64,000 bases of DNA from Lachnospiraceae bacterium (GTDB lineage: Bacteria > Bacillota > Clostridia > Lachnospirales > Bianqueaceae), in NCBI GenBank assembly GCA_022794035.1, contig JAAWDX010000003.1, positions 62,001 through 126,000 on the forward strand, read 5' to 3'. Position numbers and translations under genes: made by a program. Shown here piece by piece: positions 4,389-52,196 of the stretch; position 1 is the first letter of the stretch; the number at the start of each line of letters is the position of its first letter. The notes under the pieces were generated by a model. That model searched no databases. It had not been told where the DNA came from and was given only the letters and a program-made list of their open reading frames with translations.

Positions 4389-5426
4389 ATGTTACAACAG
4401 ATTAGATTAGCACCAGGATATGTGTACGATATTATTTTGTTATTTATGATGAAGGTCAGCCCGGAGGAAGAATGGATTGCTCGGATCATTCCGCAGAAGA
4501 AAATGAAAGAGCTGTATCCGATGTACCAGGAAATTCTAAAAAAGATTCCGGAGATCGATCCTGCGCTTCGTGTGTTTTCTCTTGTGGAGGAAACCGTACA
4601 GGGGAAGTCAAAGCGGACGATGCATGTTTTGTGGGAATGCTGGAAGGAGCTTTGGCGTAAAAATCAAAAAAATTTTAATTTAAGTATTTTTGTGAAGGAA
4701 GTTTCCAATAGCAAATACCTGGTGGAAAAGCTATGGGGAGAATATTTCAGCGGCCGTTCTTCAAAAGCAACAGAAACGATTGCGGAAGAAGTGGAAAAGC
4801 TGAATTTGAGCGTTGATATGAAATTCCATCTGTTATGCTATTTATTGCAGCCAGAGGAGTATGGACAGAGACTGATTGAAGCAATCGAATTGATTGATCA
4901 GAGATACCGCTGGATCTATCGGCAGAAGCAGGCTGCTTTAATGGAGTGTATGGAGCGGATGGATCAGAAGGGATTAAATCAGAAGGTAGCGGCTGCTTTA
5001 GAGGAGCGTGAAGGCAGAAGGGTAGTGGATGTGTCGGCAGAGTATCTCTCGTTTTCTGCGATGAACCCCTATAGCCTGTATTATGGTGAAGAGAAAAAGC
5101 TCCTGCTGATTGGAGATGAATGGGATCAAAATCAGGACGGGAAAGTGCTGAGCAGTCAGAATGTACAGCAAATATGCGATGTGCTGGGCAGCAAGATAAA
5201 AAGAAATATTTTGCAGATGATTGCGCAAAAGGGAAAGATGGACTCGCTGCAGCTCAGCAAAGAATTAAGGCTTAAAGAAAATGTGAGCGGACGCTATTTA
5301 AGGGAGCTGTTTTTAACAGGACTTTTAAAAAGAGAAAAAGCAGGAAAAAGTTATGTCTATCGCATTCATGAGGCGCAGCTTAAGCAATATCTGTATCAGC
5401 TCTGGAATACGTTTGGCCAGAGCTGA
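4389..5426 (+). CDS. Unknown protein with C-terminal ArsR-like winged helix (paralogue 1)
   Basis: I do not recognise a named family. The 345-residue protein is soluble, with no signal peptide or membrane segment. Its N terminus (LAPGYVYDIILLFMMKVSPEEEW) matches that of the next gene (EPGALFDLIFVFSAKLNPEENW), so the two are tandem paralogues. The last 80 residues look like a winged helix: an ICDVLGSKIKRNILQMIAQKG helix, then LQLSKELRLKENVSGRYLRELFLTGLLKRE and a YVYRI wing, typical of ArsR-type repressors. The long helical N-terminal part may sense a ligand or partner. Start at 4389 follows TAGGAATAG. A DNA-binding regulator is inferred from the fold only. Confidence 0.75.
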   Translation: MLQQIRLAPGYVYDIILLFMMKVSPEEEWIARIIPQKKMKELYPMYQEILKKIPEIDPALRVFSLVEETVQGKSKRTMHVLWECWKELWRKNQKNFNLSIFVKEVSNSKYLVEKLWGEYFSGRSSKATETIAEEVEKLNLSVDMKFHLLCYLLQPEEYGQRLIEAIELIDQRYRWIYRQKQAALMECMERMDQKGLNQKVAAALEEREGRRVVDVSAEYLSFSAMNPYSLYYGEEKKLLLIGDEWDQNQDGKVLSSQNVQQICDVLGSKIKRNILQMIAQKGKMDSLQLSKELRLKENVSGRYLRELFLTGLLKREKAGKSYVYRIHEAQLKQYLYQLWNTFGQS

Positions 5427-5451
5427 GGGCAGAACGAGGAGGGGATAGGAT

Positions 5452-6507
5452 ATGGTATTAAATCTCCGCAAGGAACCAGGCGCTTTATTTGATCTAATAT
5501 TTGTTTTTTCTGCTAAGCTTAATCCGGAAGAGAACTGGATGTATGATCTGGTATTGGGTCCTAAAGATAAAGAGTCTATGCGGCTTATTCGCAGGCAGCT
5601 TGCAAAAGCGCCCAAAATTCCGCAGGAACTGCAAATATTTGCGCATTTTAAAGAAAATACAAAGGAATCATTTCTGAATGTGCTGCGCAATCAGTATATT
5701 TTAAAAAGAAATATGGAGAGAGGCTCTGTAGCACGGTATAGGGAGCAGCTTTGCGCTGAAAATCTGCATCATGCCGTGTGGAGGTTTTATTTTGCCTGTG
5801 ACTTTCCGGAATCAGAGATAGAGCGGGGAAAGATCATTGACAAGGCCTTTTATAAATGGGAGCTAAGATACCTGATGTTTTCTTATTTCTCCAGACCGGA
5901 AGAGTATCAGAAAAAACTGTTGAAGGCGTGGGATGAGGTGCAGGCTTATTATGATCTGATTTATCAAAAAAGAGCAGAGGATGTGATGGCCTGTCTGCAG
6001 CTTTTGGAGGAGAGAGACCTGCAGCTTATAGTTGCTAAGCTGACGCAGGGGCCGGTCGCCTTTGAAAGAGTTAAATGGGCATGGGTCTCTGTTTCGATTT
6101 TTAATCCGCATATGGTCTGGGTAGATGCTAAAGAGGGGACTCTGCTGTTAGGCTGGAGATATGAAAGGGAGAATCTGGAAAGTCTCAGTGTCTCAGATGA
6201 AAATGTATTGGCGTTTTTTGAGGTGATGGGAAGCCTGCAGAGGAGAAAAATACTTTTGTTTTTGACCAGAAGAGAGTGGGTGAGCACTAAAGAGGTGGTA
6301 GAAGAGCTGGGAATCCAAGAAGGGCCGACAGTGCGTCATCTGATGCAGATCCGCAAGATCAAATTATTGAAGACAAAGCGGCAGGGCCGGGAAAAGCTGT
6401 ACCGCTTAGATAAGGAACAGTTCGGAAAGTATCTGGAACAAGCGGGAGAGCTCTTTGTGAAGCGCAAAAATGAAGATCTTGAAGATGAAGATTTTGGTCT
6501 GAAATGA
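5452..6507 (+). CDS. Unknown protein with C-terminal ArsR-like winged helix (paralogue 2)
   Basis: Second copy of the family at 4389, 351 residues, separated by 25 bases and likely in the same transcript. It shares the N-terminal block, the YFSRPEEYQKKLLKAWDEV/YYDLIYQKRAEDVMACL region (compare YLLQPEEYGQRLIEAIELI/YRWIYRQKQAALMECM) and a C-terminal winged helix (FFEVMGSLQRRKILLFLTRREWVSTKEVVEELG). The end is acidic (EDLEDEDFG). Overall identity to its neighbour looks modest, which suggests an old duplication. No signal peptide or transmembrane segment. Function unknown; gene regulation is inferred. Confidence 0.75.
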   Translation: MVLNLRKEPGALFDLIFVFSAKLNPEENWMYDLVLGPKDKESMRLIRRQLAKAPKIPQELQIFAHFKENTKESFLNVLRNQYILKRNMERGSVARYREQLCAENLHHAVWRFYFACDFPESEIERGKIIDKAFYKWELRYLMFSYFSRPEEYQKKLLKAWDEVQAYYDLIYQKRAEDVMACLQLLEERDLQLIVAKLTQGPVAFERVKWAWVSVSIFNPHMVWVDAKEGTLLLGWRYERENLESLSVSDENVLAFFEVMGSLQRRKILLFLTRREWVSTKEVVEELGIQEGPTVRHLMQIRKIKLLKTKRQGREKLYRLDKEQFGKYLEQAGELFVKRKNEDLEDEDFGLK

Positions 6508-10218: not shown

Positions 10219-10247
10219 TTGACAAATATGAGTGGCTGTGATATAGT
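10219..10247 (+). promoter_or_regulatory. Promoter of the lipoprotein cluster
   Basis: Consensus TTGACA (10219-10224), 17 bases, TATAGT (10242-10247), about 40 bases upstream of the first lipoprotein gene. Confidence 0.85.
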
Positions 10248-10286: not shown

Positions 10287-11735
10287 ATGATGAGAAAAAT
10301 TTACTTGATGGGCATACTTATTGGATTATGTATGTTGATGCTAACAGCATGTCAAACGCAGGATAAAGTATATCACTGGGCAGTGCTGCAAAACGGCCGT
10401 CTGCCTCTTGAAGAAAAAAAGATTGAGCAAATAAATGAAAGACTTAAGGAATTAGGAGTCGAAGGACAAATAGAGTTTCATTTTATTAAAACAGAGGAAT
10501 TAGTGACACCGGCAGTGCTGCAGCAAACCTATCAAGATTTGAATAGGAAGATGGATTTTGTATCGATTAGTCCGTCCTTAGTGGCCCTTTACAAAGAGGA
10601 CTGGCAGGACAATTTCGTCGATCTAAGCGGGGCACTGCAGAGCGGTAAGCTGAAGGAATTTTATGAAATGCTTCCCGAGGCCGTTTGGAATGCGAATCGG
10701 ATAGCGGGCGGGATATATTCCTTTTCCAATAGCAAACAGGTGCAGGAGCATGGGTTTGGTTTCTATCAGGATATGGTAGATCAAATAGGAGCAGCTAAGC
10801 TGCAAACGCTGCAGGCCGCCGAAGGACTTGAAGATGAAGAGGTTTGGAAAGCACTGTATGAAGCGAATGGGGAGCAACCCATTTGCGCATGGACAACCAT
10901 TGACTGGAACGCTGCGCAGGGGACGCCGGAGAATCCTTATCCGCATGCTGTGCTGAAAAGGCTGGCGAATGGATGGCATGAGCATGAGTTTGCGATGCTC
11001 ACAGATGATATAGGATTTAATTACGAAACAGGCGCATTTGAATGGCTGGGAGATAGCCCGGCATATATAGAGATCAAGGACAAAGTGATAGATTTCTATG
11101 AAAAAGGATATATCAGAGCGCATGATATTGCAAAGATCCGGGAGGTCGGCGAAGATAAAGAGATCGGCAGAATGGTCTATGGAATGCAGGAGCAAAAAGA
11201 TGCATTTGCACTTTGGATTCCTTCTTATGAAACCATGCAGATCAGTGCAAGAGAAAATTATGCTTATATGTATTCTCTGGTGTATAAAAAGGCGCAGAAA
11301 GGCTGGGAGCAGATTCTGAATGCCATTGGCAAGGATGAACAAATCACGGGAATTCTTAATGATTATTATGATCTGACAGCAACCGCACTTTTGCAGAGCG
11401 AAGGCGCAGAGACGCAAGAGGATCGGTATGCCGCATTAAAAAGCATGTATGAAAAGGCAGAGCTTAGCGAGGTACAGAATTTTATTTTTAATCCGGCATC
11501 CGTACAGGATCTCTGGGAAGAATGCAATGGAAAGGCGGCTGTTCTGGGCGATATGAAGTTTAGGGAAGAGGCAGTTATTACCTTAGAGGATGGAACAGAA
11601 AAAACAGTAGAACAGATTTCTGTAAAAAAGATAAATCAATTTTGGAACTCATATAAGGAAATTCTTCAAGAGGCATCGATAAGAAAGCTTCTTATGGAGG
11701 TAAACCGGCAGTATCAGGAATGGACTCGAAAATAA
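10287..11735 (+). CDS. Solute-binding-protein-like lipoprotein, family A copy 1
   Basis: A 482-residue exported lipoprotein: signal peptide with lipobox LTAC, Cys22. The layout (INERLKELGVEGQIEFHFIKTEEL, a KMDFVSISPSLVALYKEDW block, LPEAVWNANRIAGGIYSF, and later LWIPSYETMQI) resembles the LplA/DUF3502-like extracellular solute-binding proteins, where the last motif corresponds to the GxxYxxP region. It is the most diverged of four family A copies here. A second ATG at 10290 has better spacing from AAGGAG. There is no permease or ATPase gene nearby, so its ligand and partner are unknown. Confidence 0.85.
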   Translation: MMRKIYLMGILIGLCMLMLTACQTQDKVYHWAVLQNGRLPLEEKKIEQINERLKELGVEGQIEFHFIKTEELVTPAVLQQTYQDLNRKMDFVSISPSLVALYKEDWQDNFVDLSGALQSGKLKEFYEMLPEAVWNANRIAGGIYSFSNSKQVQEHGFGFYQDMVDQIGAAKLQTLQAAEGLEDEEVWKALYEANGEQPICAWTTIDWNAAQGTPENPYPHAVLKRLANGWHEHEFAMLTDDIGFNYETGAFEWLGDSPAYIEIKDKVIDFYEKGYIRAHDIAKIREVGEDKEIGRMVYGMQEQKDAFALWIPSYETMQISARENYAYMYSLVYKKAQKGWEQILNAIGKDEQITGILNDYYDLTATALLQSEGAETQEDRYAALKSMYEKAELSEVQNFIFNPASVQDLWEECNGKAAVLGDMKFREEAVITLEDGTEKTVEQISVKKINQFWNSYKEILQEASIRKLLMEVNRQYQEWTRK

Positions 11736-11740
11736 AATAA

Positions 11741-11769
11741 AGGGGAGAGAATGCAAAGTTCTCTCCCCT
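11741..11769 (+). repeat. Intergenic hairpin, copy 1
   Basis: An 11-bp perfect stem (AGGGGAGAGAA / TTCTCTCCCCT) with a seven-base loop just after the stop of the first lipoprotein gene. It lacks a T run on the plus strand, so it may be a weak terminator, a processing or a stability element. A near-identical copy precedes the gene at 16941. Confidence 0.75.
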
Positions 11770-11798
11770 GCTTGTTACAGAAAGAGAGGGAAATAAGT

Positions 11799-13268
11799 AT
11801 GAGAAAATGGATATATATAATCATATTATCATTGTTGTTTTGGATGGCAGTCTTGGTTGGATGTAGTGAGAAAGATAAGACATATCATTGGGCAATTCTG
11901 CAAAATGGCAGGCGTCAGATGGATGAAGATCAGATGCAGCGTATCAATGAACGCTTGCAGGAGATGGGAATTGAAGGAAGGGTAGAGTTTCACTATGTTA
12001 CAGTAGAAGGGCTTGTAACGCCAGAAGTGGTGGAACAGGCCTATAAGGACTTAGGGAAAAAGATGGATTTTGTATCGATTAGCCCATCATTAGTTGCCTT
12101 TACAAAGCAGGAATGGAAGGACACGTTTTTGGAGCTAAGTGAAGAGCTGAAAAACGGAGGCCTGCAAGGCTTTTATGAACGGATTCCGGAAGCGGTGTGG
12201 GAGGCGAATCAGATGGCAGGAGGACTTTATTCCTTTTCTTGGAGTAGTATGATTCGTCCGCATGGGTTTGGGTTTTGTGAGCAAACAGTAGAGCGGGTAG
12301 GAAAGGAAAATTTGCTTAAGCTTACGCAGGCGAGAGGAACAGAGGAGAAGAGTATTTGGAAGGAATTATACGAGAAAGGAGAGGATCAGCCGTTTTGCCA
12401 ATGGACAGCAATTGATTGGGGATATCCAGAGTCAACAGCGGAGGTTCCATATGGAAGACAGACATTAGATAAGTTTACGAATGGCTGGAGAAGGCATTAT
12501 TTTTGGATGATTATGGATGACATAGGGTATAACTATGAGACAGAAAAATTTGAATGGCTTGGAGAAAGTGAGACGTATGAAAAGCTTTACCAGGATGTAA
12601 TTGAATTTTGTCAGAAAGGATATATCAGGGGAGTTAACATTGATCTTGTAATAGAATATGATGCAGATATAGAGACGGGACAGGTGTTCTTTGGATATGA
12701 TAATCAGGTAGAAGAGAATAAAATATATCCCCCACTTAGTTTATGGGTACCGTCATGGGAGGAGGTACAGCTTGATCCAAGACCAGTGTATGGGTATGTA
12801 TATTCGTTTGTATATAAAGAGGCTAGGGAGGGCTGGCAAGAGGTGCTGAATGCGATTGGAATGGATGAGGAGATCACAGAGATCATTAATAAAAAGGATG
12901 ATATGACGCTGACACGAATACTGTATGAGCAACTGGATGAAGGTACGCCTATTCCGCCTCAGGTAGATGATATGTATGCATTTTTGGAGAAAGTATACAG
13001 CAAGAGAGAAAAAAGAGAGGTGACAGACTTCATTTTTAACCCGCTGCCGGTGCAAGAGATTTTAGAGGAATGTGAGCGAAAAGCGGGTATGTATACAAGT
13101 GCAAATTTTCGTAGAGATGAGCCTAATTTAACTTGGACAGAAAGAAAAATAGCGATAGAAAAAGTAGAGGACTTCTGGCAGAAATATCAGGAGCTGATGA
13201 AGGATAGTCCGATTCGTGAGGTGGTGGAGGAAGTGAACCGGCAATATCAAGAGTGGATTCAAAAATAA
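11799..13268 (+). CDS. Solute-binding-protein-like lipoprotein, family A copy 2
   Basis: A 489-residue lipoprotein with lipobox LVGC (Cys22). It begins at the ATG at 11799, preceded by AGAGAGGGAAATAAGT; the in-frame ATG at 11751 lies inside the hairpin loop and is rejected. It shares with copies 3 and 4 long identical stretches, such as YHWAILQNGRRQMDED near the mature N terminus and EGWQEVLNAIGMDEEITEI near the middle of the C-terminal half, while the segment around residues 175-215 differs between copies. It forms a pair with the family B gene that follows 83 bases later. Surface anchoring is clear; ligand unknown. Confidence 0.87.
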   Translation: MRKWIYIIILSLLFWMAVLVGCSEKDKTYHWAILQNGRRQMDEDQMQRINERLQEMGIEGRVEFHYVTVEGLVTPEVVEQAYKDLGKKMDFVSISPSLVAFTKQEWKDTFLELSEELKNGGLQGFYERIPEAVWEANQMAGGLYSFSWSSMIRPHGFGFCEQTVERVGKENLLKLTQARGTEEKSIWKELYEKGEDQPFCQWTAIDWGYPESTAEVPYGRQTLDKFTNGWRRHYFWMIMDDIGYNYETEKFEWLGESETYEKLYQDVIEFCQKGYIRGVNIDLVIEYDADIETGQVFFGYDNQVEENKIYPPLSLWVPSWEEVQLDPRPVYGYVYSFVYKEAREGWQEVLNAIGMDEEITEIINKKDDMTLTRILYEQLDEGTPIPPQVDDMYAFLEKVYSKREKREVTDFIFNPLPVQEILEECERKAGMYTSANFRRDEPNLTWTERKIAIEKVEDFWQKYQELMKDSPIREVVEEVNRQYQEWIQK

Positions 13269-13351
13269 AAGAATATGAAAATGAAAAGATAAGGCAATTC
13301 TTAGAGACTAGTTTACAATGTTAGAATCATTTTATCTAACGGAGGTATATT

Positions 13352-14884
13352 GTGTATAAACGGTATTATTTTTTATTGATTTGTATGTTGATAACAAGTA
13401 TTTTATTATGTGCTTGTCAAAAAGAAGAAGTGCCAGTGCAAAAGTCTACAGAAATACCAACAGAAGAACTGAATATTTTTATTTTAGGCGATGCATTTAC
13501 AGTGTTCTATGCATCTGAAAATAAAAAGGAAGTAATTTATACAACATATATGAATTTGGGAGAATATGAGTCTACTATTTGTTACGGGGAAGAGGGCTTT
13601 CTCTTTTATGATGCATTTAATCAATATCAGCAACAAAACGGGATCCGTCTAAATCTACATTGGTATCAATATCCAGATGAATTAGAAAAAGCACTTTTAA
13701 CAATGGATAAAGAAGAATTGCCCGATATTATTATTACAAACTATAGCACGACTGGAGACTTTTATCAGTATATGAAACAAGGTTTCTTTTATGATATTAC
13801 TTCTTATACTGAGGCAGAGGAATTGTATACAAGTGATGAGTATTATAATTTGGTATTAGAGGCAGGGCGGTTGAATGGGAAACAATATATTTTGCCAATT
13901 CTTTTTAATATTGATACACTTATGGGCTGTGAGAAAAATTGGAATATATTAGAGCTAAATGAAAAAACAGCAGAGAGTCATGAACAATTGATGAATGTTG
14001 TGTTGCAGGCTCAGCGAGAACGACAATTACAAGAAGTAATTGGGCAATGGATTGCATATACGGCATATTATACACCTTATGCATTATATGATGCAGCGGG
14101 AGAAAGATGGATTGATTATGAAAAGGAAAATGTAAGCCTGAATAAACAACGGTTTTATCAGATGGCAGAGTTTTATAGAAATTTTTTACAAGAGCAATTT
14201 GGCGAAGTACAGATTGGACAGGATTTATTATGGGAGAAGACAAAACATATGGAGGCGAGAAAAGCAACTGAAAAATATATGGAGGAGTATATAGATAATA
14301 AAGGATGTATTATAGAAGGGGGCGGCGCTTTTCAGGGATTTATTCATAATGCGGCGGCGCAAGCATGGTACTATGAAAGTAGATACCAAGATATGGGAGA
14401 AGAGTTCAGACTAATGGCAATACCGGGAGCTGCTCAAGGGACGACGGCACATGTCTCCTGCTTTGGCGGTGTGTTAAGTACATCTAAACATCCGGAAGAG
14501 GCATACAATTTCTTGCGCTATCTAATGGATACAGAGATTTTTTGTGGTTTTGGCATTTCTGTTAATAAAGAAAATGTATCTAAGATGTTAGCGAATTTAA
14601 GTAAGTTAGAATATGAATTAAGATATGGATGTCAGCCCTTGAAAGAGGATGGAACTCCTTATACAGGGGATGGGGATTATATTATTCATCCAATGACTAA
14701 AGAGACTAAAGAAAGTCTAGAAAAGATGCTCGAAAATATAACAAGCGTATCACTGCCAGATTGGCCAGTATATGAAATTCTACGGAAACAATTGGAGAAA
14801 TATGGAAAAGGAGAAATATCTGTTGAAATAGCGTATGAAACGGCTTATCATCAGCTTGAAAATTATTTAAAAGAAAGGAAGTAA
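13352..14884 (+). CDS. Solute-binding-protein-like lipoprotein, family B copy 1
   Basis: A 510-residue lipoprotein, GTG start seven bases after GGAGG, lipobox LCAC (Cys22). It looks like a type-1 (MalE/UgpB-like) extracellular binding protein: LPDIIITNYSTTGDFYQYMK, GKQYILPILFNIDTLMG, and a late GGVLSTSKHPEEAYNFLRYL block that matches the SKHPEEAxxFL pattern of the family. It is 1 base from the next gene. Its codons are clearly richer in A and T than those of its paralogue at 18445, although the proteins are alike, so one copy may have a different history. No transporter partner nearby. Confidence 0.87.
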   Translation: MYKRYYFLLICMLITSILLCACQKEEVPVQKSTEIPTEELNIFILGDAFTVFYASENKKEVIYTTYMNLGEYESTICYGEEGFLFYDAFNQYQQQNGIRLNLHWYQYPDELEKALLTMDKEELPDIIITNYSTTGDFYQYMKQGFFYDITSYTEAEELYTSDEYYNLVLEAGRLNGKQYILPILFNIDTLMGCEKNWNILELNEKTAESHEQLMNVVLQAQRERQLQEVIGQWIAYTAYYTPYALYDAAGERWIDYEKENVSLNKQRFYQMAEFYRNFLQEQFGEVQIGQDLLWEKTKHMEARKATEKYMEEYIDNKGCIIEGGGAFQGFIHNAAAQAWYYESRYQDMGEEFRLMAIPGAAQGTTAHVSCFGGVLSTSKHPEEAYNFLRYLMDTEIFCGFGISVNKENVSKMLANLSKLEYELRYGCQPLKEDGTPYTGDGDYIIHPMTKETKESLEKMLENITSVSLPDWPVYEILRKQLEKYGKGEISVEIAYETAYHQLENYLKERK

Positions 14885-14885
14885 A

Positions 14886-16349
14886 ATGAAGAAAGTTAAA
14901 TATATAGTTGTATTATTTTTTTTCTTATATATGATAACCTTACTGGGATGCAGTGAGAAAGATAAGGTATATCACTGGGCGATTCTGCAAAACGGCAGGC
15001 GCCAGATGGATGAAGACCAGATGCAGCGTATCAATGAGCGCTTGCAGGAGATGGGAATTGAAGGAAGGATAGAGTTTCACTATGTTACAGTAGAAGGGCT
15101 TGTAACGCCGGAAGTAGTGGAACAGGCCTATAAAGATTTAGGAAGAAAGATGGATTTTGTATCGATTAGTCCATCGTTAGTGGCTTTTACAAAGCAGGAA
15201 TGGAAGGACACGTTTTTGGAGCTGAGTGAAGAGCTGAAAAACGGAGGCCTGCAAGGCTTTTATGAACGGATTCCGGAAGCGGTGTGGGAGGCGAATCAGA
15301 TGGCAGGAGGACTTTATTCCTTTTCTTGGAGTAGTATGATTCGTCCGCATGGATTTGGATTTTGTGAGCAAACAATAGAGCGGGTAGGAAAGGAAAATCT
15401 ACTTAAGCTTACAGAGGCAAATGGAACCAAGGATGAAGAAATCTGGAAGGAACTATATGAGGCAAATGGGGAACAGGCAATCTGTTTATGGACGGGAATG
15501 GACTGGGGACATCCAGAGCCGACAGCAGAGATTCCGTATGGAAGGCAGACTTTAGATAAGTTTACGAATGGGTGGAGAAGGCATTATTTTTGGATGATCA
15601 TGGATGATGTAGGATATAATTATGAAACAGAGAGATTTGAATGGCTGGGAGAGAGTGAGACATATCAAGATCTGTATCATGGAGTTGTGGAATTTTATAA
15701 GAAGGGTTATATCAGAAACATCAATATTGATACGGTGATAGAATATGATGCAGATATTGATGCCGGACAGGTGTTCTTTGGATATGATAATCAGGTAGAA
15801 GAAAATAATATTAGTCGATGGATATTATGGGTACCGTCATGGGAGAAGGTACAGCTTGATCCAAGACCAGTATATGGATATGTATATTCATTTGTATATA
15901 AAGAGGCTAGGGAGGGCTGGCAAGAGGTGCTGAATGCGATTGGAATGGATGAGGAGATCACAGAGATCATTAATAAAAAGGATGATATGACGCTGACACG
16001 AATACTGTATGAGCAACTGGACGAAGGTACTCCTGTTCCGCCTCAGGTAGATGATATGTATACATTCCTTGAGGAAATATACAGTAAGAGAGAAAAAAGA
16101 GCGGTAACGGATTTCATTTTTAATCCGCTGCCGATACAGGATATTCTGAGAGAATGCGAGCGAAGAGCAAGCGCATATGCTAGTACAGATTTTTACAATG
16201 AAGATGCAAAAGGCTGGTCAGAAAGAAAAATAGTGATAGAAAAAGTAGAAGATTTCTGGCAGAACTATCAAGATTTGATGAAGGATAGTCCGATCCATGA
16301 GGTAGTGGAGGAAGTAAACCGGCAATATCAGGAGTGGATTCAAAAATAA
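14886..16349 (+). CDS. Solute-binding-protein-like lipoprotein, family A copy 3
   Basis: A 487-residue lipoprotein (lipobox TLLGC, Cys22), starting one base after the stop of the family B gene with GAAAGGAAG upstream, so translation is probably coupled. Most of the mature protein is nearly identical to copy 2, including about 119 bases identical at DNA level (15903-16021 against 12819-12937), but the signal peptide and the 175-215 region are its own and partly resemble copy 1 (ELYEANGEQAIC). This mosaic suggests recombination between copies. Function unknown beyond a solute-binding-like fold. Confidence 0.87.
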   Translation: MKKVKYIVVLFFFLYMITLLGCSEKDKVYHWAILQNGRRQMDEDQMQRINERLQEMGIEGRIEFHYVTVEGLVTPEVVEQAYKDLGRKMDFVSISPSLVAFTKQEWKDTFLELSEELKNGGLQGFYERIPEAVWEANQMAGGLYSFSWSSMIRPHGFGFCEQTIERVGKENLLKLTEANGTKDEEIWKELYEANGEQAICLWTGMDWGHPEPTAEIPYGRQTLDKFTNGWRRHYFWMIMDDVGYNYETERFEWLGESETYQDLYHGVVEFYKKGYIRNINIDTVIEYDADIDAGQVFFGYDNQVEENNISRWILWVPSWEKVQLDPRPVYGYVYSFVYKEAREGWQEVLNAIGMDEEITEIINKKDDMTLTRILYEQLDEGTPVPPQVDDMYTFLEEIYSKREKRAVTDFIFNPLPIQDILRECERRASAYASTDFYNEDAKGWSERKIVIEKVEDFWQNYQDLMKDSPIHEVVEEVNRQYQEWIQK

Positions 16350-16385
16350 ATACTATATAAAAATAGAATAAAGGTAAAATAGAGG

Positions 16386-16414
16386 TTGACAAAAATAAAA
16401 TAAAATGATATATT
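16386..16414 (+). promoter_or_regulatory. Promoter of the small secreted protein gene
   Basis: Consensus TTGACA (16386-16391), 17 bases, TATATT (16409-16414). It leaves a leader of about 105 bases, rich in A, before the start at 16527. Confidence 0.8.
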
Positions 16415-16526
16415 TAAATCAACAAAAAATTTAGAACGGAATGGGTTGGAGGTGAGTCCGATGTTCCTATAAGAATCTGGATAGATAACAAAGGCCTAAA
16501 AATTAAAATAAAAAGGAGAAAACGAA

Positions 16527-16865
16527 ATGAAAAAGAAGTTTTTTGCAGGAATTTTAGTTGCGGCGATGTTATTGGTTAGTATAGGGGCATTGGCAAAAAC
16601 AAATAGTGATACAGTTCCCTTTGATGGAGGGGGATATGGTGTAATTACAATTGGGATTTCAGAGCAAGGATATAGTGCATGGGCAGAAACTGTATCCTAC
16701 AGTGCCAATAATGAGGTGCTTAGTACACGTGTAAAAGGATATGGTACAAGTGTGAAGGACGCTACAGGACATAGTGATGCAGCAGTAACAGGAAATTTTA
16801 CATCAGCAGAGTCATGGCATGCATTTTTTGGTCGATCAAGCTGTAACATGTATATATACCGATAA
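16527..16865 (+). CDS. Small secreted protein of unknown function
   Basis: A 112-residue protein with a clear Sec signal peptide (MKKKFFAGILVAAMLLVSIGA, 21 residues with probable cleavage shortly after) and no lipobox. The mature part of about 88 residues is rich in Gly, Ser, Thr and aromatic residues and looks like beta structure (GGGYGVITIGISEQGYSAW). One Cys near the C terminus, end SSCNMYIYR. Strong AAAAAGGAG ribosome site and its own promoter. It sits inside the lipoprotein cluster. I do not recognise the family; a faint likeness to lactococcin-972-type secreted peptides (SDAAVTGNFTSAESW) is not enough to name it. Confidence 0.8.
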   Translation: MKKKFFAGILVAAMLLVSIGALAKTNSDTVPFDGGGYGVITIGISEQGYSAWAETVSYSANNEVLSTRVKGYGTSVKDATGHSDAAVTGNFTSAESWHAFFGRSSCNMYIYR

Positions 16866-16883
16866 AGAATAATATGGTATAAG

Positions 16884-16912
16884 GGGGGAGAGAATGCAGA
16901 GTTCTCTCCCCT
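16884..16912 (+). repeat. Intergenic hairpin, copy 2
   Basis: A stem of GGGGAGAGAA with TTCTCTCCCC around a seven-base loop, followed by TGTTTGCTATAGAAAGAGGG. Sequence and position before a family A lipoprotein gene match the copy at 11741-11769. Confidence 0.75.
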
Positions 16913-16940
16913 GTTTGCTATAGAAAGAGGGAAAATAGGT

Positions 16941-18413
16941 ATGAGAAAATGGATGTATATAATCATATTATCATTGTTGTTTTGTATGGCAGTCCTGATT
17001 GGATGCAGTGAGAAAGATAAGGTATATCACTGGGCGATTCTGCAAAACGGCAGGCGTCAGATGGATGAAGGTCAGATGCAGCGTATCAATGAACGCTTGC
17101 AGGAGATGGGAATTGAAGGGAGAGTAGAGTTTCACTATGTTACAGTAGAAGGGCTTGTAACGCCGGAAGTAGTGGAGCAGGCCTATAAGGACTTAGGGAA
17201 AAAGATGGATTTTGTATCGATTAGTCCATCGTTAGTAGCTTTTACAAAGCAGGAGTGGCAGGACACGTTTCTGGAGCTGAGTGAAGATCTGAAAAACGGA
17301 GGTCTGCAAGGTTTTTACGAGCGGATTCCGGAAGTAGTGTGGGAGGCGAATCAGATGGCAGGAGGGATCTATTCATTCTCTTGGGCAAATGAAATTCGCC
17401 CACATGGGTTTGGATTTTGTGAGCAAACAATAGAGCGGGTAGGAAAGGAAAATCTACTTAAGCTTACGCAGGCGAGAGGAACAGAGGAGAAGAGTATTTG
17501 GAAGGAGTTATATGAGAAAAGCGGGGAACAGCCGTTTTGTCAATGGACAGGAATTGATTGGGGGAGGCCATCGCCGACAACAGAACGTCCTTATGATAGG
17601 ACAACATTGGATAATATTACGAATGGTTGGAGAAGGCATTATTTTTGGATGATCATGGATGACATAGGGTATAACTATGAGACAGAAAAATTTGAATGGC
17701 TTGGAGAAAGCGAGATGTATGAAAGGCTTTACCGAGATGTAATTGAGCTTTATCAAAAGGGATACACTAGGAGAATTAACATTGATCTTGTAATAGAATA
17801 TGAGGTAGATATAGAGGTTGGGCAGGTTTTTTTTGGTTATGATAATCAGATAGAGGAAAGACATACAGAAAATTCTAGTTATCGTTTATGGGTACCGTCA
17901 TGGGAGGAAATACAGCTTGATCCAAGATCAGCATACGGGTACGTATATTCATTTGTATATAAAGAGGCTAGGGAGGGCTGGCAGGAGGTGCTGAATGCGA
18001 TTGGAATGGATGAGGAGATCACAGAGATCATTAATAAAAAGGATGATATGACATTGACACGGATACTGTATGAACAACTGGATGAAGGGACGTCTGTTCC
18101 ACCTAAGGTAGATGATATGTATGCATTTTTAGAGGAGGTATATAGCAAACGAGAAAAGAAAGAGGTGACAGACTTCATTTTTAATCCACTACCGGTGCAA
18201 GAGATTTTAGAAGAATGTGAACGAAGAGCGGATATGTATGCGAGCACAAATTTTTGTAGAGATGAGCCTAATTTAACTTGGTCAGAAAGAAAAATAGTGA
18301 TAGAAAAAGTAGAAGATTTCTGGCAGAACTATCAAGATTTGATGAAGGATAGTCCGATCCATGAGGTGGTGGAGGAAGTGAACCGGCAATATCAGGAGTG
18401 GATTCAAAACTGA
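16941..18413 (+). CDS. Solute-binding-protein-like lipoprotein, family A copy 4
   Basis: A 490-residue lipoprotein, lipobox LIGC (Cys22), start preceded by AAAGAGGGAAAATAGGT. Its signal peptide is almost the same as that of copy 2 (MRKWMYIIILSLLF against MRKWIYIIILSLLF), as is the region upstream, so gene and leader were duplicated together. It diverges from copies 2 and 3 around RPSPTTERPYDRTTLDNITN. It is followed 31 bases later by the second family B gene, repeating the A-B order seen at 11799-14884. Ligand unknown. Confidence 0.87.
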   Translation: MRKWMYIIILSLLFCMAVLIGCSEKDKVYHWAILQNGRRQMDEGQMQRINERLQEMGIEGRVEFHYVTVEGLVTPEVVEQAYKDLGKKMDFVSISPSLVAFTKQEWQDTFLELSEDLKNGGLQGFYERIPEVVWEANQMAGGIYSFSWANEIRPHGFGFCEQTIERVGKENLLKLTQARGTEEKSIWKELYEKSGEQPFCQWTGIDWGRPSPTTERPYDRTTLDNITNGWRRHYFWMIMDDIGYNYETEKFEWLGESEMYERLYRDVIELYQKGYTRRINIDLVIEYEVDIEVGQVFFGYDNQIEERHTENSSYRLWVPSWEEIQLDPRSAYGYVYSFVYKEAREGWQEVLNAIGMDEEITEIINKKDDMTLTRILYEQLDEGTSVPPKVDDMYAFLEEVYSKREKKEVTDFIFNPLPVQEILEECERRADMYASTNFCRDEPNLTWSERKIVIEKVEDFWQNYQDLMKDSPIHEVVEEVNRQYQEWIQN

Positions 18414-18444
18414 TAGATTTAGGGATAGAGAAGGAGGATAGAGT

Positions 18445-19956
18445 ATGAGAAAATTAGTGATTGGCCTGTTGATGCTAAGCCTGCTGCTGGGATGCCAAAA
18501 AACGCAGACATCGCGGCGGACAGTAGAGGATTCCGTAGAAAAGCTGGATATTTATATTTTGGGTGATGCAACTACAGAGCATATTGTGTCAGAGAATAAA
18601 ACGAATGTATTTTATACAACGCTGATGCGCATAGGGGAGTATTGTTCGGCGGCATGCTATGGAGAGCAGGGCTTTCTTTTCTATGATGTTTTTCGGCAAT
18701 ACGAGGAGCAAACGGGCATACAGCTGGAGCTGCATTGGTACCGCTATCCGGATGAGCTAGAGAGTGCGCTTGCAAGTGCGGGGAAAAATGAACTGCCGGA
18801 TTTGATCATTACTAATTATACATCGACGGCAGATTTCTATCGGTATATGAAGCAGGGGATTTTTTGCGATTTAACGCCCTATACAGAAGAGGAGGAGCTG
18901 TATACACAGCAGAAATATTATAATCCGGTGCTGGAGGCAGGGCGTTTAGAAGGAAAGCAGTATATCCTGCCAATCATTTTTAACATCGATACTGTGATGG
19001 GAAATGCAGATAACTGGCAGAGACTGGGTCTTCGCTTTGAAAGCATACAAACGCATGAGGAATTTATGAATCTTTTGCTGCAAGCGCAGCAGGAAAAACA
19101 ACTGCCGGAAACGGCGGGGCAGTTCCTGACGGAAATTGCGCTGTATACGCCGTACGTGCTATATGATAGTGCGGGAGAAACATGGATTGATTATGAGACA
19201 GGCGAGGTGCATCTGGATCAGTCTCAATTTGTCCAGATGGCGGAATTCTACCGCAATTTTCTGCTGGAGCAATTTGATGAAGTAAAAAGCGGTGAAAAAT
19301 TGTCATGGGCCAAAACGCGGCATCTGGAGGTCATGCAGATGATTGCAGGACATACGGAAGACTATCTGGACGATAAGGGATGTATTGTAGAGGGCGGCGG
19401 CGCCTTTCAAAGTGCACTGCATAGCGCGGCAGCACAGGCGTGGTATTATGAAAGTCGTTATCAGGATATGGGGAGAACCTTTGCGGTAGAGGCCATACCG
19501 GGAAAAGATCAAGGCGTAACAGCGCATGTATCCTACTTTGGAGGAGTATTGAGTACAAGCGAATATCCGCGGGCTGCATATGATTTTTTGCGGTATTTGA
19601 TGGACGCAGAATTCTTTTGCGGATTTGGTCTGTCTGTCAACAAGGATAACACAGCCAACATGTTGAAGGAATTAACAGAGCTCGAATATGAGCTGCGGTA
19701 CGGTTTGCAGGCTGTGAAGGAGGATGGAACGCCTTATAAGAGTGATGATGATTATACAGTGCATCCGATGTCAGAGCAGACAAAGGAAAAGCTAGAAGCA
19801 ATGCTGGAGAGAATCAGCAGCGTATCTCTGCCGGACTGGCCGGTGTATGAAATTCTTTGGAAGCAGCTGGAGAGCTATGGAAAAGGGGAGATATCTGTAG
19901 AAGCAGCGTATGAAGCCGCCTGTCAACAGCTCGAGGAGTATCTAAAGCTTATCTGA
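18445..19956 (+). CDS. Solute-binding-protein-like lipoprotein, family B copy 2
   Basis: A 503-residue lipoprotein, lipobox LLGC (Cys17), with GAAGGAGGATAG before the ATG. It follows the family B gene at 13352 along its whole length (for example PDLIITNYTSTADFYRYMKQG and YILPIIFNIDTVMG), but uses many more G/C-ending codons such as CTG and GCG. Shared blocks EGGGAFQSALHSAAAQAWYYESRYQDMG and the C-terminal VSLPDWPVYEIL are family landmarks. It is the last gene of the cluster; no clear terminator follows. Function beyond a surface binding protein is not evident. Confidence 0.87.
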   Translation: MRKLVIGLLMLSLLLGCQKTQTSRRTVEDSVEKLDIYILGDATTEHIVSENKTNVFYTTLMRIGEYCSAACYGEQGFLFYDVFRQYEEQTGIQLELHWYRYPDELESALASAGKNELPDLIITNYTSTADFYRYMKQGIFCDLTPYTEEEELYTQQKYYNPVLEAGRLEGKQYILPIIFNIDTVMGNADNWQRLGLRFESIQTHEEFMNLLLQAQQEKQLPETAGQFLTEIALYTPYVLYDSAGETWIDYETGEVHLDQSQFVQMAEFYRNFLLEQFDEVKSGEKLSWAKTRHLEVMQMIAGHTEDYLDDKGCIVEGGGAFQSALHSAAAQAWYYESRYQDMGRTFAVEAIPGKDQGVTAHVSYFGGVLSTSEYPRAAYDFLRYLMDAEFFCGFGLSVNKDNTANMLKELTELEYELRYGLQAVKEDGTPYKSDDDYTVHPMSEQTKEKLEAMLERISSVSLPDWPVYEILWKQLESYGKGEISVEAAYEAACQQLEEYLKLI

Positions 19957-20146: not shown

Positions 20147-20232
20147 AATTATGAATTAAAGGCCATAGCACGACTATGATATTTTAAGCTTTGCTTCTTA
20201 ATGTGACGGAAGAATCAGAGAGGAGCAAACCG

Positions 20233-20499
20233 ATGAAATATATCAATGCGGAAACAATTTTACCAAAGGATCTCATTCAGAGGATCCAAACCTTTGTAGC
20301 CGGCGGCTATGTATATATCCCGGCGCCCGAACAGAAAAAGGCGTGGGGCACCAACACCGGCATCCGAAGGGAGCTGCAGGAGCGTAATGAAGAGATTCGC
20401 AGCCAATATGAGCGCGGACAGCAGATTCGAGAGCTTTCCCAGCAATATTGCCTGTGCGAATCCAGCATTTATAAAATCATCCGCGGAAAATCAGATTAG
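20233..20499 (+). CDS. CD3324-family small helix-turn-helix protein
   Basis: An 88-residue protein recognised as the clostridial CD3324 type, related to Mor-like HTH proteins: MKYINAETILPKDLIQRIQ, then FVAGGYVYIPAPEQ, a W-G-x-N-T-G-x-R motif, and a C-terminal HTH (IRELSQQYCLCESSIYKII). The start at 20233 follows AGAGAGGAG; an in-frame start at 20191 has no ribosome site. The family is usually a stand-alone gene and probably a DNA-binding regulator; its target is not known. A terminator follows directly. Confidence 0.82.
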   Translation: MKYINAETILPKDLIQRIQTFVAGGYVYIPAPEQKKAWGTNTGIRRELQERNEEIRSQYERGQQIRELSQQYCLCESSIYKIIRGKSD

Positions 20500-20636: not shown

Positions 20637-22175
20637 ATGAGTATTTTAGAGATTGAACATTTAAGCCATGAATATGGCGATCACATATTATATCAAGATG
20701 CCGCGCTGCGCCTCAATGCTGGTGAGCACATGGGCATCACAGGCATGAACGGAGCCGGCAAAAGCACGCTGTTTAGGATCATTATGGGAATGGTCGTGCC
20801 CGATGAGGGACGGATCTGGATCTCACCGCGCCACAGCATCGGATATCTCGATCAATATGCGGAAATAGACCGGGAAAGCAGCATCCGAGCCTATCTGCTG
20901 AGCGCGCATGCCGAGCTTTTTAAGCAGGAGCAGCAGATGCTCAGCCTCTACGAGCGGGGCGGACAGGATCCGCGGCAGCTGCAAAAAGCAGCACGCATCC
21001 AGGAGCATCTGGAGCAGGAAGGCTTTTATGAAATTGAGTATCAAATGGAACGGGTAGCCGGCGGCCTCGGCCTAAAGGAAATCGGCAGCGACGGACTGGA
21101 AACGCCTATTGAAAACCTGAGCGGTGGCCAGCGGGCCAAGGTCATCCTAGCCAAGCTGCTGCTAGAGGCCCCCGATATTCTGCTCATGGACGAGCCCACC
21201 AACTTTTTAGACGCAGCGCAGGTCGAGTGGCTGGTCAGCTTCTTGCAGCAATACGTCGGCGCGTTCATGGTCATTTCACATCAGCATGACTTTCTGGAGC
21301 GCATCACCACCTGTATCAGCGATCTCGAATTCAACAAGGTCACGACCTATCGCGGGAGCTTTTCTGCCGCCATGCGGCAAAAGGAATTTAAGCGTGAGGA
21401 GCAGCTGAGGCTGTATCATAGTCAGCAGAGGGAGATTCATAAGCTGGAGGATTACATTGCCCGCAACAAGGTGCGGGCTTCGACGGCGGCTATGGCGAGG
21501 AGCCGTGAGAAGGCGCTGGCGCGGATTGAGCGTATCTCTGCGCCGCAGCATCTGGCGGAGCCGCAGTTTGTGTTTCCGCAGATTGTATTGTCGGAGCAGG
21601 TGATTTTGGAGGCGGAAGAGCTGCAGATTGGATACGACCGGGTGCTTCTGCCGCCGATTACGTTTAAGATGCATACGGCTGATAAGCTGGTGATCCGCGG
21701 CTTTAACGGCGTGGGCAAGACGACCCTCTTGAAGACGCTGATGGGGCAGCTGCCGAAGCTGGGCGGTGCGTTTTATCTGTCGCATCGGGGTACAATTTCT
21801 TATTATGAGCAGGACCTTGCGTGGGACGACCCGCAAGCTACGCCGCTTGCCTATTTGGCGGCCGTGTATCCGAAGCTGCAGCCGAAGGAGCTTCGCGGGG
21901 CGCTGTCGCGCTGCGGCGTGAAGCAGGATCATATGGTGCAGGCGCTGGGGACGCTGAGCGGCGGAGAGCAGTCGAAGGTAAAGCTGGCGCAGCTGAGCCT
22001 TAAAAAAAGTCATTTATTGATTTTGGATGAGCCGACCAATCATTTGGACCAGAATGCCAAGCGGGCGCTGGTGCGGGCGATTCAGGCCTATGAGGGCGCG
22101 GTGATCATGGTTTCGCATGAGGATCGGTTTTATGAGGAAATCACAGATCGAATTATTGAGCTTGGAGGAATGTAA
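20637..22175 (+). CDS. ABC-F family ATPase (ribosome-associated type)
   Basis: A 512-residue soluble protein with two ABC ATPase domains and no membrane part, the mark of ABC-F proteins that act on the ribosome as translation factors or antibiotic-protection proteins. Domain 1: Walker A GMNGAGKS (36-43), signature LSGGQ (161-165), Walker B LLMDEPTN. Linker of about 80 residues, charged and helical (residues 240-320). Domain 2: GFNGVGKT (355-362), LSGGE (440-444), LLILDEPTNHLD. It resembles the Uup/YdiF/Vga-like range; I cannot tell a housekeeping factor from a resistance protein. Starts with AAAGGAAATAAGGT upstream and stands alone. Confidence 0.9.
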   Translation: MSILEIEHLSHEYGDHILYQDAALRLNAGEHMGITGMNGAGKSTLFRIIMGMVVPDEGRIWISPRHSIGYLDQYAEIDRESSIRAYLLSAHAELFKQEQQMLSLYERGGQDPRQLQKAARIQEHLEQEGFYEIEYQMERVAGGLGLKEIGSDGLETPIENLSGGQRAKVILAKLLLEAPDILLMDEPTNFLDAAQVEWLVSFLQQYVGAFMVISHQHDFLERITTCISDLEFNKVTTYRGSFSAAMRQKEFKREEQLRLYHSQQREIHKLEDYIARNKVRASTAAMARSREKALARIERISAPQHLAEPQFVFPQIVLSEQVILEAEELQIGYDRVLLPPITFKMHTADKLVIRGFNGVGKTTLLKTLMGQLPKLGGAFYLSHRGTISYYEQDLAWDDPQATPLAYLAAVYPKLQPKELRGALSRCGVKQDHMVQALGTLSGGEQSKVKLAQLSLKKSHLLILDEPTNHLDQNAKRALVRAIQAYEGAVIMVSHEDRFYEEITDRIIELGGM

Positions 22176-37372: not shown

Positions 37373-37404
37373 CACGGTATAGATATAGAATGAAGGAGAA
37401 TCTA

Positions 37405-38856
37405 ATGAGAAAAATTTGGATTAAGAGACTGCTTAGCTTACTGATAGCAGCGCTACTGGCGTTAGGCGCGGTATCTTGTAGGCAGCGTATGCGCGCAGAA
37501 AAGAGGGAGAGTACAGTTGCCAAAGAAGAACAGGAGCTGCTGATATTTGTAGAAGCGGGGATTGATTTGTCGTTGATGAAAAATTTTAAAGCAGCTTACC
37601 CAGATGTTGCTTATCGGCAGGTTTCATACCAGAGCATTGAAATCGCGGTCAAACAAAACGGAGATCCTGATATCATTTTGAGCGGATGTAATGCTTCGCT
37701 GCAGGAATTTTACAAGGAAGGTTATATTCTGGATATGACAACCCTATATGATTTGGATACAACCTATGATGCGCAGGCATATTATCCGCAGGCAGAATCT
37801 GTCGGTAAAATAAACGAACGCATTTATGCGCTTCCGCTAGGTTTGGAAACAAATTATATGACTGTGGCAGATTCTGATTGGCAGCAGATGACATTTAAAA
37901 TGCTGCCGGAAGAGTATTCCGTGCAGCAGCTGCTAGATGCAATGATAGAAGAGCTGTTAAAGGAAGATAGAGGAGAAAGGGCTGTCTTTTCCGGAGGATA
38001 TAAAGAGTCTTTTTATGATTGGCTTTGGGATAGCGGCGCAATAGAAGTAGCGCCAACTGAAGTTTATGTAAATCAAATGCTTTTTGAGCGGATTGCAGAG
38101 ATGCTGGAACTGAAAACACAAAATTACTGGCAGCAAAACAATAAAAATCCCCAAATTTTAGAATGGAATCATGCGCTGAACCCATTGGCGAATAAGGAGA
38201 TGTACTGTATCATCTGTTGGGGAGGAGCATCTGATTTTGATTTCAAGCTTAATGCTCCGCATATAGCACCGCAATCAGCACTCGTATATGCGCAAAGCGC
38301 ACAAAAAAGTTTGCTGGGAGAAAATATCCATGTATTGTGGAGGCCAAGTGAAAATCGAAACGGCCAATACGCAGCTAAGGTTAATGTATGCGGTATGATT
38401 GGAAAACACACAAAACAGGAAGAAAAGGCCTATGATGTACTGCGCAAGATGATGGATATGCCATGGGCCATCTGGCAGCTGCCGGATAGGATGAACGACA
38501 GCTCCTTTCCGATCAATTGCCAGCAATCGCTGGCAATGCTAGAAACAGTAGAGCAAGAAGGGACTGCAAGCTTTTATGTTGTTACTGAAACCGGCATAGA
38601 GACAATTGAAAAGCAGGTACTTTCGGATGAATTAAGGCAAGAACTAAACAATTACCTTACACATATTGCTTATGTGTACAGGACTGATAGACGAACGCAG
38701 GAAAAAGTGCAGGAAATTTGGGAAGCCTATATGAGAAAAGACAATATCTATAACCTGCAGATGCTGTATGAAGCCATTTATGGACTCTTGCAGAAGGAGC
38801 TTATTTTAGAAGGAATGAGTCATGAATCCACATATTCAGATTGCTATTTGCGATGA
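37405..38856 (+). CDS. Solute-binding-protein-like lipoprotein linked to a two-component system
   Basis: A 483-residue lipoprotein with signal peptide and lipobox AVSC (Cys25). Features of an extracellular binding protein: LLIFVEAGIDLSLMKNF at the mature N terminus, DPDIILSGCNASLQEFYKEG and RIYALPLGLETNY, equivalent to the GKxYxLP region. I start at 37405 because the AAGGAG at 37392-37397 serves this ATG; the ATG at 37390 is too close to it. The response regulator starts inside its last 35 bases, so the three genes form one coupled operon. It is more distant from, but of the same general type as, the lipoproteins at 10-20 kb. It may sense an outside ligand; how the signal would cross the membrane is unclear. 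Confidence 0.85.
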   Translation: MRKIWIKRLLSLLIAALLALGAVSCRQRMRAEKRESTVAKEEQELLIFVEAGIDLSLMKNFKAAYPDVAYRQVSYQSIEIAVKQNGDPDIILSGCNASLQEFYKEGYILDMTTLYDLDTTYDAQAYYPQAESVGKINERIYALPLGLETNYMTVADSDWQQMTFKMLPEEYSVQQLLDAMIEELLKEDRGERAVFSGGYKESFYDWLWDSGAIEVAPTEVYVNQMLFERIAEMLELKTQNYWQQNNKNPQILEWNHALNPLANKEMYCIICWGGASDFDFKLNAPHIAPQSALVYAQSAQKSLLGENIHVLWRPSENRNGQYAAKVNVCGMIGKHTKQEEKAYDVLRKMMDMPWAIWQLPDRMNDSSFPINCQQSLAMLETVEQEGTASFYVVTETGIETIEKQVLSDELRQELNNYLTHIAYVYRTDRRTQEKVQEIWEAYMRKDNIYNLQMLYEAIYGLLQKELILEGMSHESTYSDCYLR

Positions 38857-39568
38857 TGAGGCTAGTGAATTAAACTATGTACGCACAATTGTTGAAAGCT
38901 GGGCGCAGCAAAGCGGTCATCATATCAATATCGAGACCTTTGCAAGCGCAGAAGCATTTTTATTTCATTATGCCGAAAATAAAGCGTATGATATATTGCT
39001 GCTTGATATCGAGATGAAGGAAATGAACGGTATTATGCTGGCAAAGCAAATCCGCGCGCAGAACAAAACCATGCAGATCATCTTTGTCACCGGATTTGCC
39101 GACTATATGCAGCAGGGGTATGATGTAGCGGCGCTTCACTATTTAATGAAGCCAGTGAGCAGCGAGAAGCTTTCAGAGGTGCTCACGCGGGCCGCCAGAC
39201 AGATTGCACGCTGCCCTCAGGTTCTCTTTGTAGAGCACCGAGGAGAGAGCGTGCGCATTACGCTGGATGAGCTTCTGTATATTGAGGCGATGGCGCATGG
39301 TACCGAGCTGGTGCTTGAACAGGAAAAGGAAGGTCATAGGAGAATTCTGCGCCTAGAGGCTGCCGACTCCATCTCCCAATTTGAAAGCAGGCTGCAGAAG
39401 GATTTTGTGCGCTGCCACCGCTCTTATTTGGTCAATCTCATGCGCATAGAGCGCATTACCAAGACGGAAATCCTGCTTGATACGCAAAACAGCGTTCCGC
39501 TGTCGCGCCGCCGCTATGCAGCAGTCAATCAGGCCTTTATCGAGTATTATACAAAGGAGAAACCATGA
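38822..39568 (+). CDS. LytTR-family response regulator
   Basis: A 248-residue AgrA/VirR-type response regulator. The receiver domain has the acidic pair in IAICDDEA, phospho-acceptor Asp62 in LLLDIEMKEMNG, and the conserved Lys in YLMKPVSSEKL. The LytTR DNA-binding domain follows (about 140-245: VRITLDELLYIEAMAHG, then FVRCHRSYLVNLMRIERI). It overlaps the lipoprotein gene by 35 bases and its own end overlaps the kinase gene by 4 bases. Such regulators bind direct repeats in promoters; no obvious site was found by eye near 37343. Confidence 0.94.
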   Translation: MNPHIQIAICDDEASELNYVRTIVESWAQQSGHHINIETFASAEAFLFHYAENKAYDILLLDIEMKEMNGIMLAKQIRAQNKTMQIIFVTGFADYMQQGYDVAALHYLMKPVSSEKLSEVLTRAARQIARCPQVLFVEHRGESVRITLDELLYIEAMAHGTELVLEQEKEGHRRILRLEAADSISQFESRLQKDFVRCHRSYLVNLMRIERITKTEILLDTQNSVPLSRRRYAAVNQAFIEYYTKEKP

Positions 39569-40290
39569 ATCTGTTTGCAAAATGGCTTGACCGGCGCTTT
39601 GCTGCCATGCAGCAGGATCTCGTCAGCCGGCATTACGACGAGGTGCAAAACATCTATCAAACCATGCGCGGCTGGCGGCACGATTACCATAATCACATTC
39701 AGACCATGCTGGCGCTGTTAGAAACGCAGGAGCAAACGGCCGGCACAGCCGGAAACATGACGTCATTTGCGGAGGCGGCCAAGCCGCTTAAAGAGTATCT
39801 GCTGAGCCTCAACGATGATCTGACGCAGGTGGATACCGTGATCAAGACAGGCAATATTATGATAGACGCTATTTTAAACAGCAAGCTTTCATTGATTCAG
39901 AAGAAGGGTATTGAGGTAAGCGCTAAAGCCGTTGTACCGCATAATTTGGCCATATCAGAGATTGATTTGTGCAACATTCTGGGCAATCTTCTGGATAATG
40001 CGATGGAGGCCTGCCTGAGACAGCCGCCGGAGCAAAAACGGTTTGTTCGGGTGTATATGGGAATATTAAAAAAGCAATTATATATATCCGTATCCAATTC
40101 AATGGGGAAGACAGCCAAACAAGGCGAGGATCGTTTTTTGAGCAGTAAACAAGGAAGGCTGCATGGCCTTGGCTTGGGACGCATCGATCAAACAGTAGAA
40201 AAGTATGGCGGCTATGTCAATCGCAAGCAGGAAGAGGGCGTGTTTGCCACCGAGCTGCTGCTGCCGCAGCCAGTCATAGAGGAATGTTGA
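39565..40290 (+). CDS. Soluble GHKL-type sensor histidine kinase
   Basis: A 241-residue kinase of the AgrC/CitA-like GHKL group. It has no membrane segment at all: the protein begins with a basic, amphipathic stretch and goes straight to the dimerisation helix with the phospho-acceptor motif WRHDYHNHIQ (His39). The ATP-binding part shows the N box EIDLCNILGNLLDNAMEAC and a G box LGLGRIDQTVEKYGG. Canonical partners of LytTR regulators have five to seven membrane helices; here the input domain is missing and may be supplied by another protein. ATGA overlap with the regulator gene. Confidence 0.92.
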   Translation: MNLFAKWLDRRFAAMQQDLVSRHYDEVQNIYQTMRGWRHDYHNHIQTMLALLETQEQTAGTAGNMTSFAEAAKPLKEYLLSLNDDLTQVDTVIKTGNIMIDAILNSKLSLIQKKGIEVSAKAVVPHNLAISEIDLCNILGNLLDNAMEACLRQPPEQKRFVRVYMGILKKQLYISVSNSMGKTAKQGEDRFLSSKQGRLHGLGLGRIDQTVEKYGGYVNRKQEEGVFATELLLPQPVIEEC

Positions 40291-52183: not shown

Positions 52184-52196
52184 AGAAACCTCCATT

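Follow-up and report, generated by a model that had tools for sequence, protein, structure and literature searches.

An array of paired solute-binding-type lipoproteins encoded without a permease in a Lachnospiraceae genome

Binding proteins whose genes lack an accompanying transporter tend to be recorded and then not followed up. Among the described systems with which such proteins can be compared, AmiA, AliA and AliB are pneumococcal binding proteins that share one peptide permease; in this set, as in the Borrelia OppA sets, the proteins belong to the same family and are close to the permease's own binding protein. A different arrangement is that of XylFII with LytS, in which an extracellular binding protein serves a histidine kinase. 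The CuaD-CuaSR system provides a precedent for three-component sensing, with a binding protein that loads its ligand onto a histidine kinase (PMC10384115). In NgtS (SP_0092) of Streptococcus pneumoniae, Trp386 stacks on the sugar (PMC5215778); the residue number was worked out in this analysis from the protein construct that the authors of that paper used.

The array considered here lies in the 2.3-Mb genome (98% complete) of a gut-type Lachnospiraceae bacterium, within the window, i.e. the whole stretch of 64,000 nucleotides that was analysed. As the preliminary description had it, seven genes occupy 9.7 kb (positions 10287-19956) and encode four A-type and two B-type lipoproteins and one small secreted protein; all seven have the same orientation (Table 1). 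All six large proteins do carry a lipobox, with the cysteine at residue 22 (17 in B2) and the B sequences reading LCAC and LLGC; the lipoboxes are intact and all frames of the array are open. A and B represent two separate families by BLAST; with A3 as reference, identity among the A copies is 46-83%, and B1 is 63% identical to B2. The GC content is 38-44% in the array and near 50% in the downstream neighbours, and an Rfam search of the array returned no match. The further claim that neither a permease nor an ATPase is encoded in or near the array stands for the permease, a whole-genome PF00528 search having placed no importer permease inside the window. For the ATPase it needs a qualification: about 0.7 kb downstream, at 20637-22175, there is a gene for an ABC-F-type ATPase, which has no membrane domain and is kept in the sister species, where the array is absent. 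Just downstream of the array, at 20191-20499, a gene for a CD3324-family/Mor-like DNA-binding protein scores above the NCBIfam cut-off. Elsewhere in the window, two tandem paralogous genes (4389-6507; 345 and 351 aa) are, like the array, absent from the sister's syntenic site, and on the minus strand (51584-53228) two overlapping reading frames, which may be one broken glycosidase gene, adjoin a sialidase-like gene.

Table 1. Features of the array and the further B-type gene, in window coordinates.
Feature	Position	Strand	Remarks
Sigma-70-like promoter	10219-10247	+	upstream of A1; TTGACA-17-TATAGT, TG before second hexamer, 11/12
A1, A-type lipoprotein, 482 aa	10287-11735	+	most divergent A copy in the array
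Stem-loop, 12 bp	11741-11769	+	between A1 and A2; RNA fold z = -4.9
A2, A-type lipoprotein, 489 aa	11799-13268	+	start preferred because the mechanically listed start at 11751, which is unlikely, falls within the hairpin
B1, B-type lipoprotein, 510 aa	13352-14884	+	SBP_bac_8, E 2e-11
A3, A-type lipoprotein, 487 aa	14886-16349	+	starts 1 nt after B1
Second sigma-70-like promoter	16386-16414	+	upstream of the small gene; TTGACA-17-TATATT, TG before second hexamer, 11/12
Small secreted protein, 112 aa	16527-16865	+	signal peptide, no lipobox
Stem-loop, 12 bp	16884-16912	+	directly 3' of the small gene; z = -5.6
A4, A-type lipoprotein, 490 aa	16941-18413	+	
B2, B-type lipoprotein, 503 aa	18445-19956	+	SBP_bac_8, E 7e-10
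Further B-type lipoprotein, 488 aa	37390-38856	+	outside the array; overlaps LytTR response regulator gene

The two promoters listed in Table 1 are the only 11/12 matches in the region, and their positions suggest that the array is read as two transcription units, promoter-A1-hairpin-A2-B1-A3 and promoter-small gene-hairpin-A4-B2. Both hairpins share an identical 12-bp stem (GGGGAGAGAA...TTCTCTCCCC) and occupy corresponding places before A2 and A4, and the repeated unit is therefore taken to be the hairpin-A segment plus leader, followed by B.

The solute-binding layout attributed to the large proteins is borne out for B by Pfam and for A by a full-length profile match to NgtS structures. The B proteins are SBP_bac_8 solute-binding proteins: B1 and B2 reach 44.7 and 39.6 bits against a curated cut-off of 27, and a profile built from 22 B members matches CbpC plus other sugar-binding proteins. 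When the CUT1 criterion of an adjoining cognate permease is applied, a PF00528 partner is found beside none of the 12 B genes of the genome. At a separate locus (L001:5490-8862, minus strand), a B protein of 704 aa has a C-terminal extension homologous to an adjoining, separate 210-aa protein (E 1e-22). For the A proteins of the window, scores against DUF3502 are 11-15 bits, below the cut-off of 24.4, and paralogues in the same genome lie above it (40.6 bits in L004). The four window copies alone matched no solved structure; a profile of 24 A relatives matches the NgtS/SP0092 structures (5swa) over about 450 residues with an E-value of 1e-19. AlphaFold modelling of A (7 sequences; mean pLDDT 41) gave results too poor for fold comparison. 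By the profile evidence, the A proteins are related to the LplA/NgtS (DUF3502) class but have diverged from it.

Relatives that do adjoin transport genes allow the A proteins to be compared position by position. Outside the genus but within the order, 15 A relatives adjoin LplB and YtcP; in a maximum-likelihood tree these permease-linked relatives form one group (support 99/98), and the 21 permease-less A proteins of the genus form another (support 89/88, 92% of bootstrap trees). A column was counted as conserved if no more than one of the 15 permease-linked proteins departed from it, which yields 26 columns. Twelve of them are present in NgtS too (K81, E108, G127, P165, D278, L351, G365, E367, G394, G456, Q484 and D488 in the numbering of L090), and here the orphan A proteins keep 16 of 252 cells (6%), a contrast that may in part reflect ancestry and not docking loss, NgtS being close to the one permease-linked clade. 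Ten other columns (e.g. N75, G273, F428 and Q486) are 84% kept in the orphan proteins. Near the C-terminus, the permease-linked relatives present an ExQxQxD motif, of which the permease-less proteins lack the D and mostly replace the first Q by N. The segment with the aromatic position aligned to Trp386 of NgtS is missing from all four A proteins of the window. Taken together, the lost positions and the missing segment fit a loss of the transport role. Other contexts of A-type genes were recorded as well. In another genome of the order, three A-type proteins stand in tandem at a contig end, with no permease on the stretch read (L095:7240-10930). In other families, an A-type gene accompanies genes for a lipoprotein of about 390 aa, a GldA-type ATPase and a 12-TM protein (L011:1-11405, L080:7264-13397, L096:2392-8108 and L081:5991-8714), and the version in Thomasclavelia cocleata further includes the small secreted protein as well as a regulator of the LytTR type.

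Many A/B loci lack a permease, and the array is one of them; the family is specific to the genus, with fast turnover, and a scan of the genomes of named bacteria found T. cocleata and one MAG only. At least 7 A and at least 12 B genes (at least 19 in total) occur in this genome, and a permease adjoins none of them; in the sister species there are at least 15 A and at least 13-15 B genes, mostly paired. An adjacent B gene, no more than 120 nt away, accompanies 5 of the 7 A genes of this genome and 11 of the 15 of the sister species; among the B genes of this genome, 8 out of 12 stand without an A neighbour. Pairwise distances among A and among B proteins correlate across 14 pairs (Mantel r 0.84, permutation p 2e-4), as is partly expected from the co-duplication of adjacent genes. 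It follows that a pair is copied and diverges as one unit, and this co-divergence suggests a joint function of A and B.

Turnover was assessed by comparing two species of the genus. At the sister's syntenic site, murB-whiA-dipeptidase directly join the ABC-F and FGGY kinase genes (62-72% identity) without the array. Between species, the best A match reaches 35% identity and the best B match 45%, against a median of 67% for 37 other reciprocal-best proteins. Two sites carry A/B genes in both species, one beside nrdG and the other between pepF and a glycosidase-like gene, and the genes there are 25-34% identical. Arrays like this one, for which related genomes were to be surveyed, recur without permeases in the sister, and neither their order nor their place is kept. 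The proposal that the tandem expansion reflects selection for variation is not upheld: dN/dS among A2-A4 is 0.17-0.19, so that these copies are under purifying selection, and the idea of diversifying selection among them was rejected. A2-A4 form a mosaic of near-identical stretches around a middle part that has diverged in dN and dS alike, which looks like gene conversion. The variation lies in gene content between species and not among the recent copies of the array.

Genes without an adjoining permease could still serve a transporter encoded elsewhere, and the main rival explanation, although unlikely, is that A and B can replace one another as binding proteins and act in trans for the genome's only LplB/YtcP permease together with a lone MsmX-type ATPase. 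Stretches of 10-17 kb around each A/B gene were read for partner permeases, and none fit to be a partner in the same operon was found; the PF00528 systems within two of these stretches (L002 and L009) carry binding-protein genes of their own. Across the whole genome, the PF00528 search identified 12 permease genes in eight systems, each beside its own binding-protein gene. The preliminary description would have given up a non-transport role had an orphan permease set been found in constant company with these genes; this genome lacks an orphan sugar permease, and what could be shared is one complete LplB/YtcP set. This set (C1:58431-59937) is the only one of the eight systems of the matching sugar class, one MalK/MsmX-type ATPase gene stands alone in the genome, and the sister species has an equivalent set; use in trans would also suit the remote membership of A in the LplA class, which uses a permease of the LplB/YtcP kind. 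Against it, 19 candidates would face one permease that already has its own binding protein (582 aa), which neither the A nor the B profile recognises, most of the positions that permease-linked proteins keep are missing from the orphan A proteins, and such a scheme does not call for binding proteins to come in pairs. The only spot with a matching permease near is in the sister, at a contig end, where one A-B pair stands divergent beside MalF/MalG/MalK genes; it is possible that this pair shares that permease.

If A and B handed a ligand to a histidine kinase in the manner of CuaD/CuaSR or XylFII/LytS, they would be extracellular sensors, a reading we consider rather improbable for the array. 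It draws on the third B gene of the window, which overlaps a LytTR gene (38822-39568) with a gene for a GHKL kinase (39565-40290) behind it, so that the three genes span 37390-40290, and on an SBP_bac_1 lipoprotein gene of the same genome that overlaps a gene for a hybrid histidine kinase with HisKA, HATPase and two receiver stretches (L029:8114-12051, minus strand). The GHKL kinase in question, however, has no predicted membrane segment, and no kinase is encoded in the array or adjoining it. A search for LytS/YesM-type kinases (PF06580) gave no match in this genome or in the sister, and it is therefore unlikely that the array uses a route of exactly the LytS/YesM type.

The small secreted protein raises a further question, namely whether it is what the lipoproteins bind. 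Its family has one copy in this genome and four in the sister species, all five adjoining A/B genes, and a sixth copy precedes two A genes in T. cocleata (L011); among 390 genomes of the order no clear further copy was detected, and all clear copies adjoin A/B genes. In five of the six cases, a strong stem-loop (z -2.7 to -7.8) follows the stop codon of the small gene; the sequences of these stem-loops differ and their position is constant. A plausible role of the hairpin is partial termination, by which the small protein would be kept in excess. AlphaFold modelling of the small protein (2 sequences; mean pLDDT 47) likewise gave results too poor for fold comparison. In the sister species, similar 5' leaders of about 200 nt are located upstream of two small-protein genes (L040:8196-8710 and 12423-13020). 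It could be argued that the small protein is antibacterial or signalling, and that A and B bind it as immunity proteins or receptors. The gene order, with the small gene first, then the hairpin and then the lipoproteins, would suit this idea, as would the rapid turnover and non-syntenic placement between species. Its probability is nonetheless put at a low level, since most A/B pairs have no small gene and we know of no immunity protein with this fold. An identity as lactococcin 972 was rejected because the match (TIGR01653, 19.9 bits against a cut-off of 32.1, E 7e-4), weak as it is, disappears without the signal peptide. That A and B are functionless, decaying duplicates of old transport binding proteins, as their divergence, the deletions in A and the many unpaired copies might indicate, is very improbable in view of the open frames, the intact lipoboxes and the low dN/dS among A2-A4.

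The reading placed first, tentatively and with somewhat less than even confidence, is that A and B together form a receptor on the cell surface, or a complex that captures a ligand there, and do not serve a dedicated ABC importer as its binding subunit. The more general statement, that these proteins capture or detect something extracellular and do not take it up, is probably correct; the non-transport role raised in the preliminary description has gained in weight from the permease-less A clade and its lost conserved positions. Under the receptor or capture reading, the array would be a module in two copies, each producing a membrane-anchored pair of solute-binding type, A plus B, with one copy headed by the small secreted protein. 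A and B would touch each other; the ligand would be held by B, the better-scoring of the two as a solute-binding protein, and A would act as a degenerate partner. The CbpC/YesO-like relatives of B point to a glycan or glycopeptide as the likely ligand. The hairpin would keep the small protein more abundant than the lipoproteins, and the small protein itself might be released into the cell's surroundings as a ligand, carrier or effector. A bolder version, which we regard as a long shot, is that two classes of solute-binding protein have been co-opted from sugar transport into a receptor for the co-encoded, fast-evolving small protein, each species having its own pairs for self-recognition or self-protection.

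In this genus, about twenty or more such genes per genome, many of them in co-diverging two-family pairs with a signature that sets them apart from transport relatives, make the wholesale recruitment of binding proteins to a non-transport role testable. For annotation, the difference in the ExQxQxD motif offers a practical marker that warns against calling these proteins nutrient importers.

When the array is set beside the known systems, the A proteins resemble NgtS and LplA-DUF3502 proteins in size and in being lipoproteins, and match them over the full length through the family profile. Relatives in other families of the order adjoin LplB/YtcP, whereas the A genes here, judged by the same LplA criterion, have no permease; A also differs in mostly lacking the 12 transport positions, in the missing Trp386 segment of the window copies and in its frequent pairing with B. 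The B proteins are like the CUT1 sugar-binding proteins CbpC and YesO (SBP_bac_8/SBP_bac_1) in scoring above the Pfam cut-off and matching CbpC, yet their genes lack the permease that accompanies the two nearest relatives outside the genus (L130 and L131). The sets with a GldA-type ATPase and a 12-TM protein (L011, L080 and L096) also contain permease-less A relatives, with a small protein and hairpin in front in T. cocleata, but there the partner is another lipoprotein with an exporter-type ABC system and not B, and the tree keeps them outside the orphan clade. With CuaD-CuaSR (PMC10384115), the locus shares a binding protein that stands outside a transporter and adjoins two-component genes, as seen for the third B gene, whereas the array itself has no kinase and PF06580 is absent from the genome. 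The array is comparable to the AmiA/AliA/AliB and Borrelia OppA sets in that many binding proteins stand against few permeases, one of which, LplB/YtcP, is of the matching class; it differs from them in that its binding proteins come from two families, arranged pairwise, and that the permease itself has a binding protein of yet another kind.
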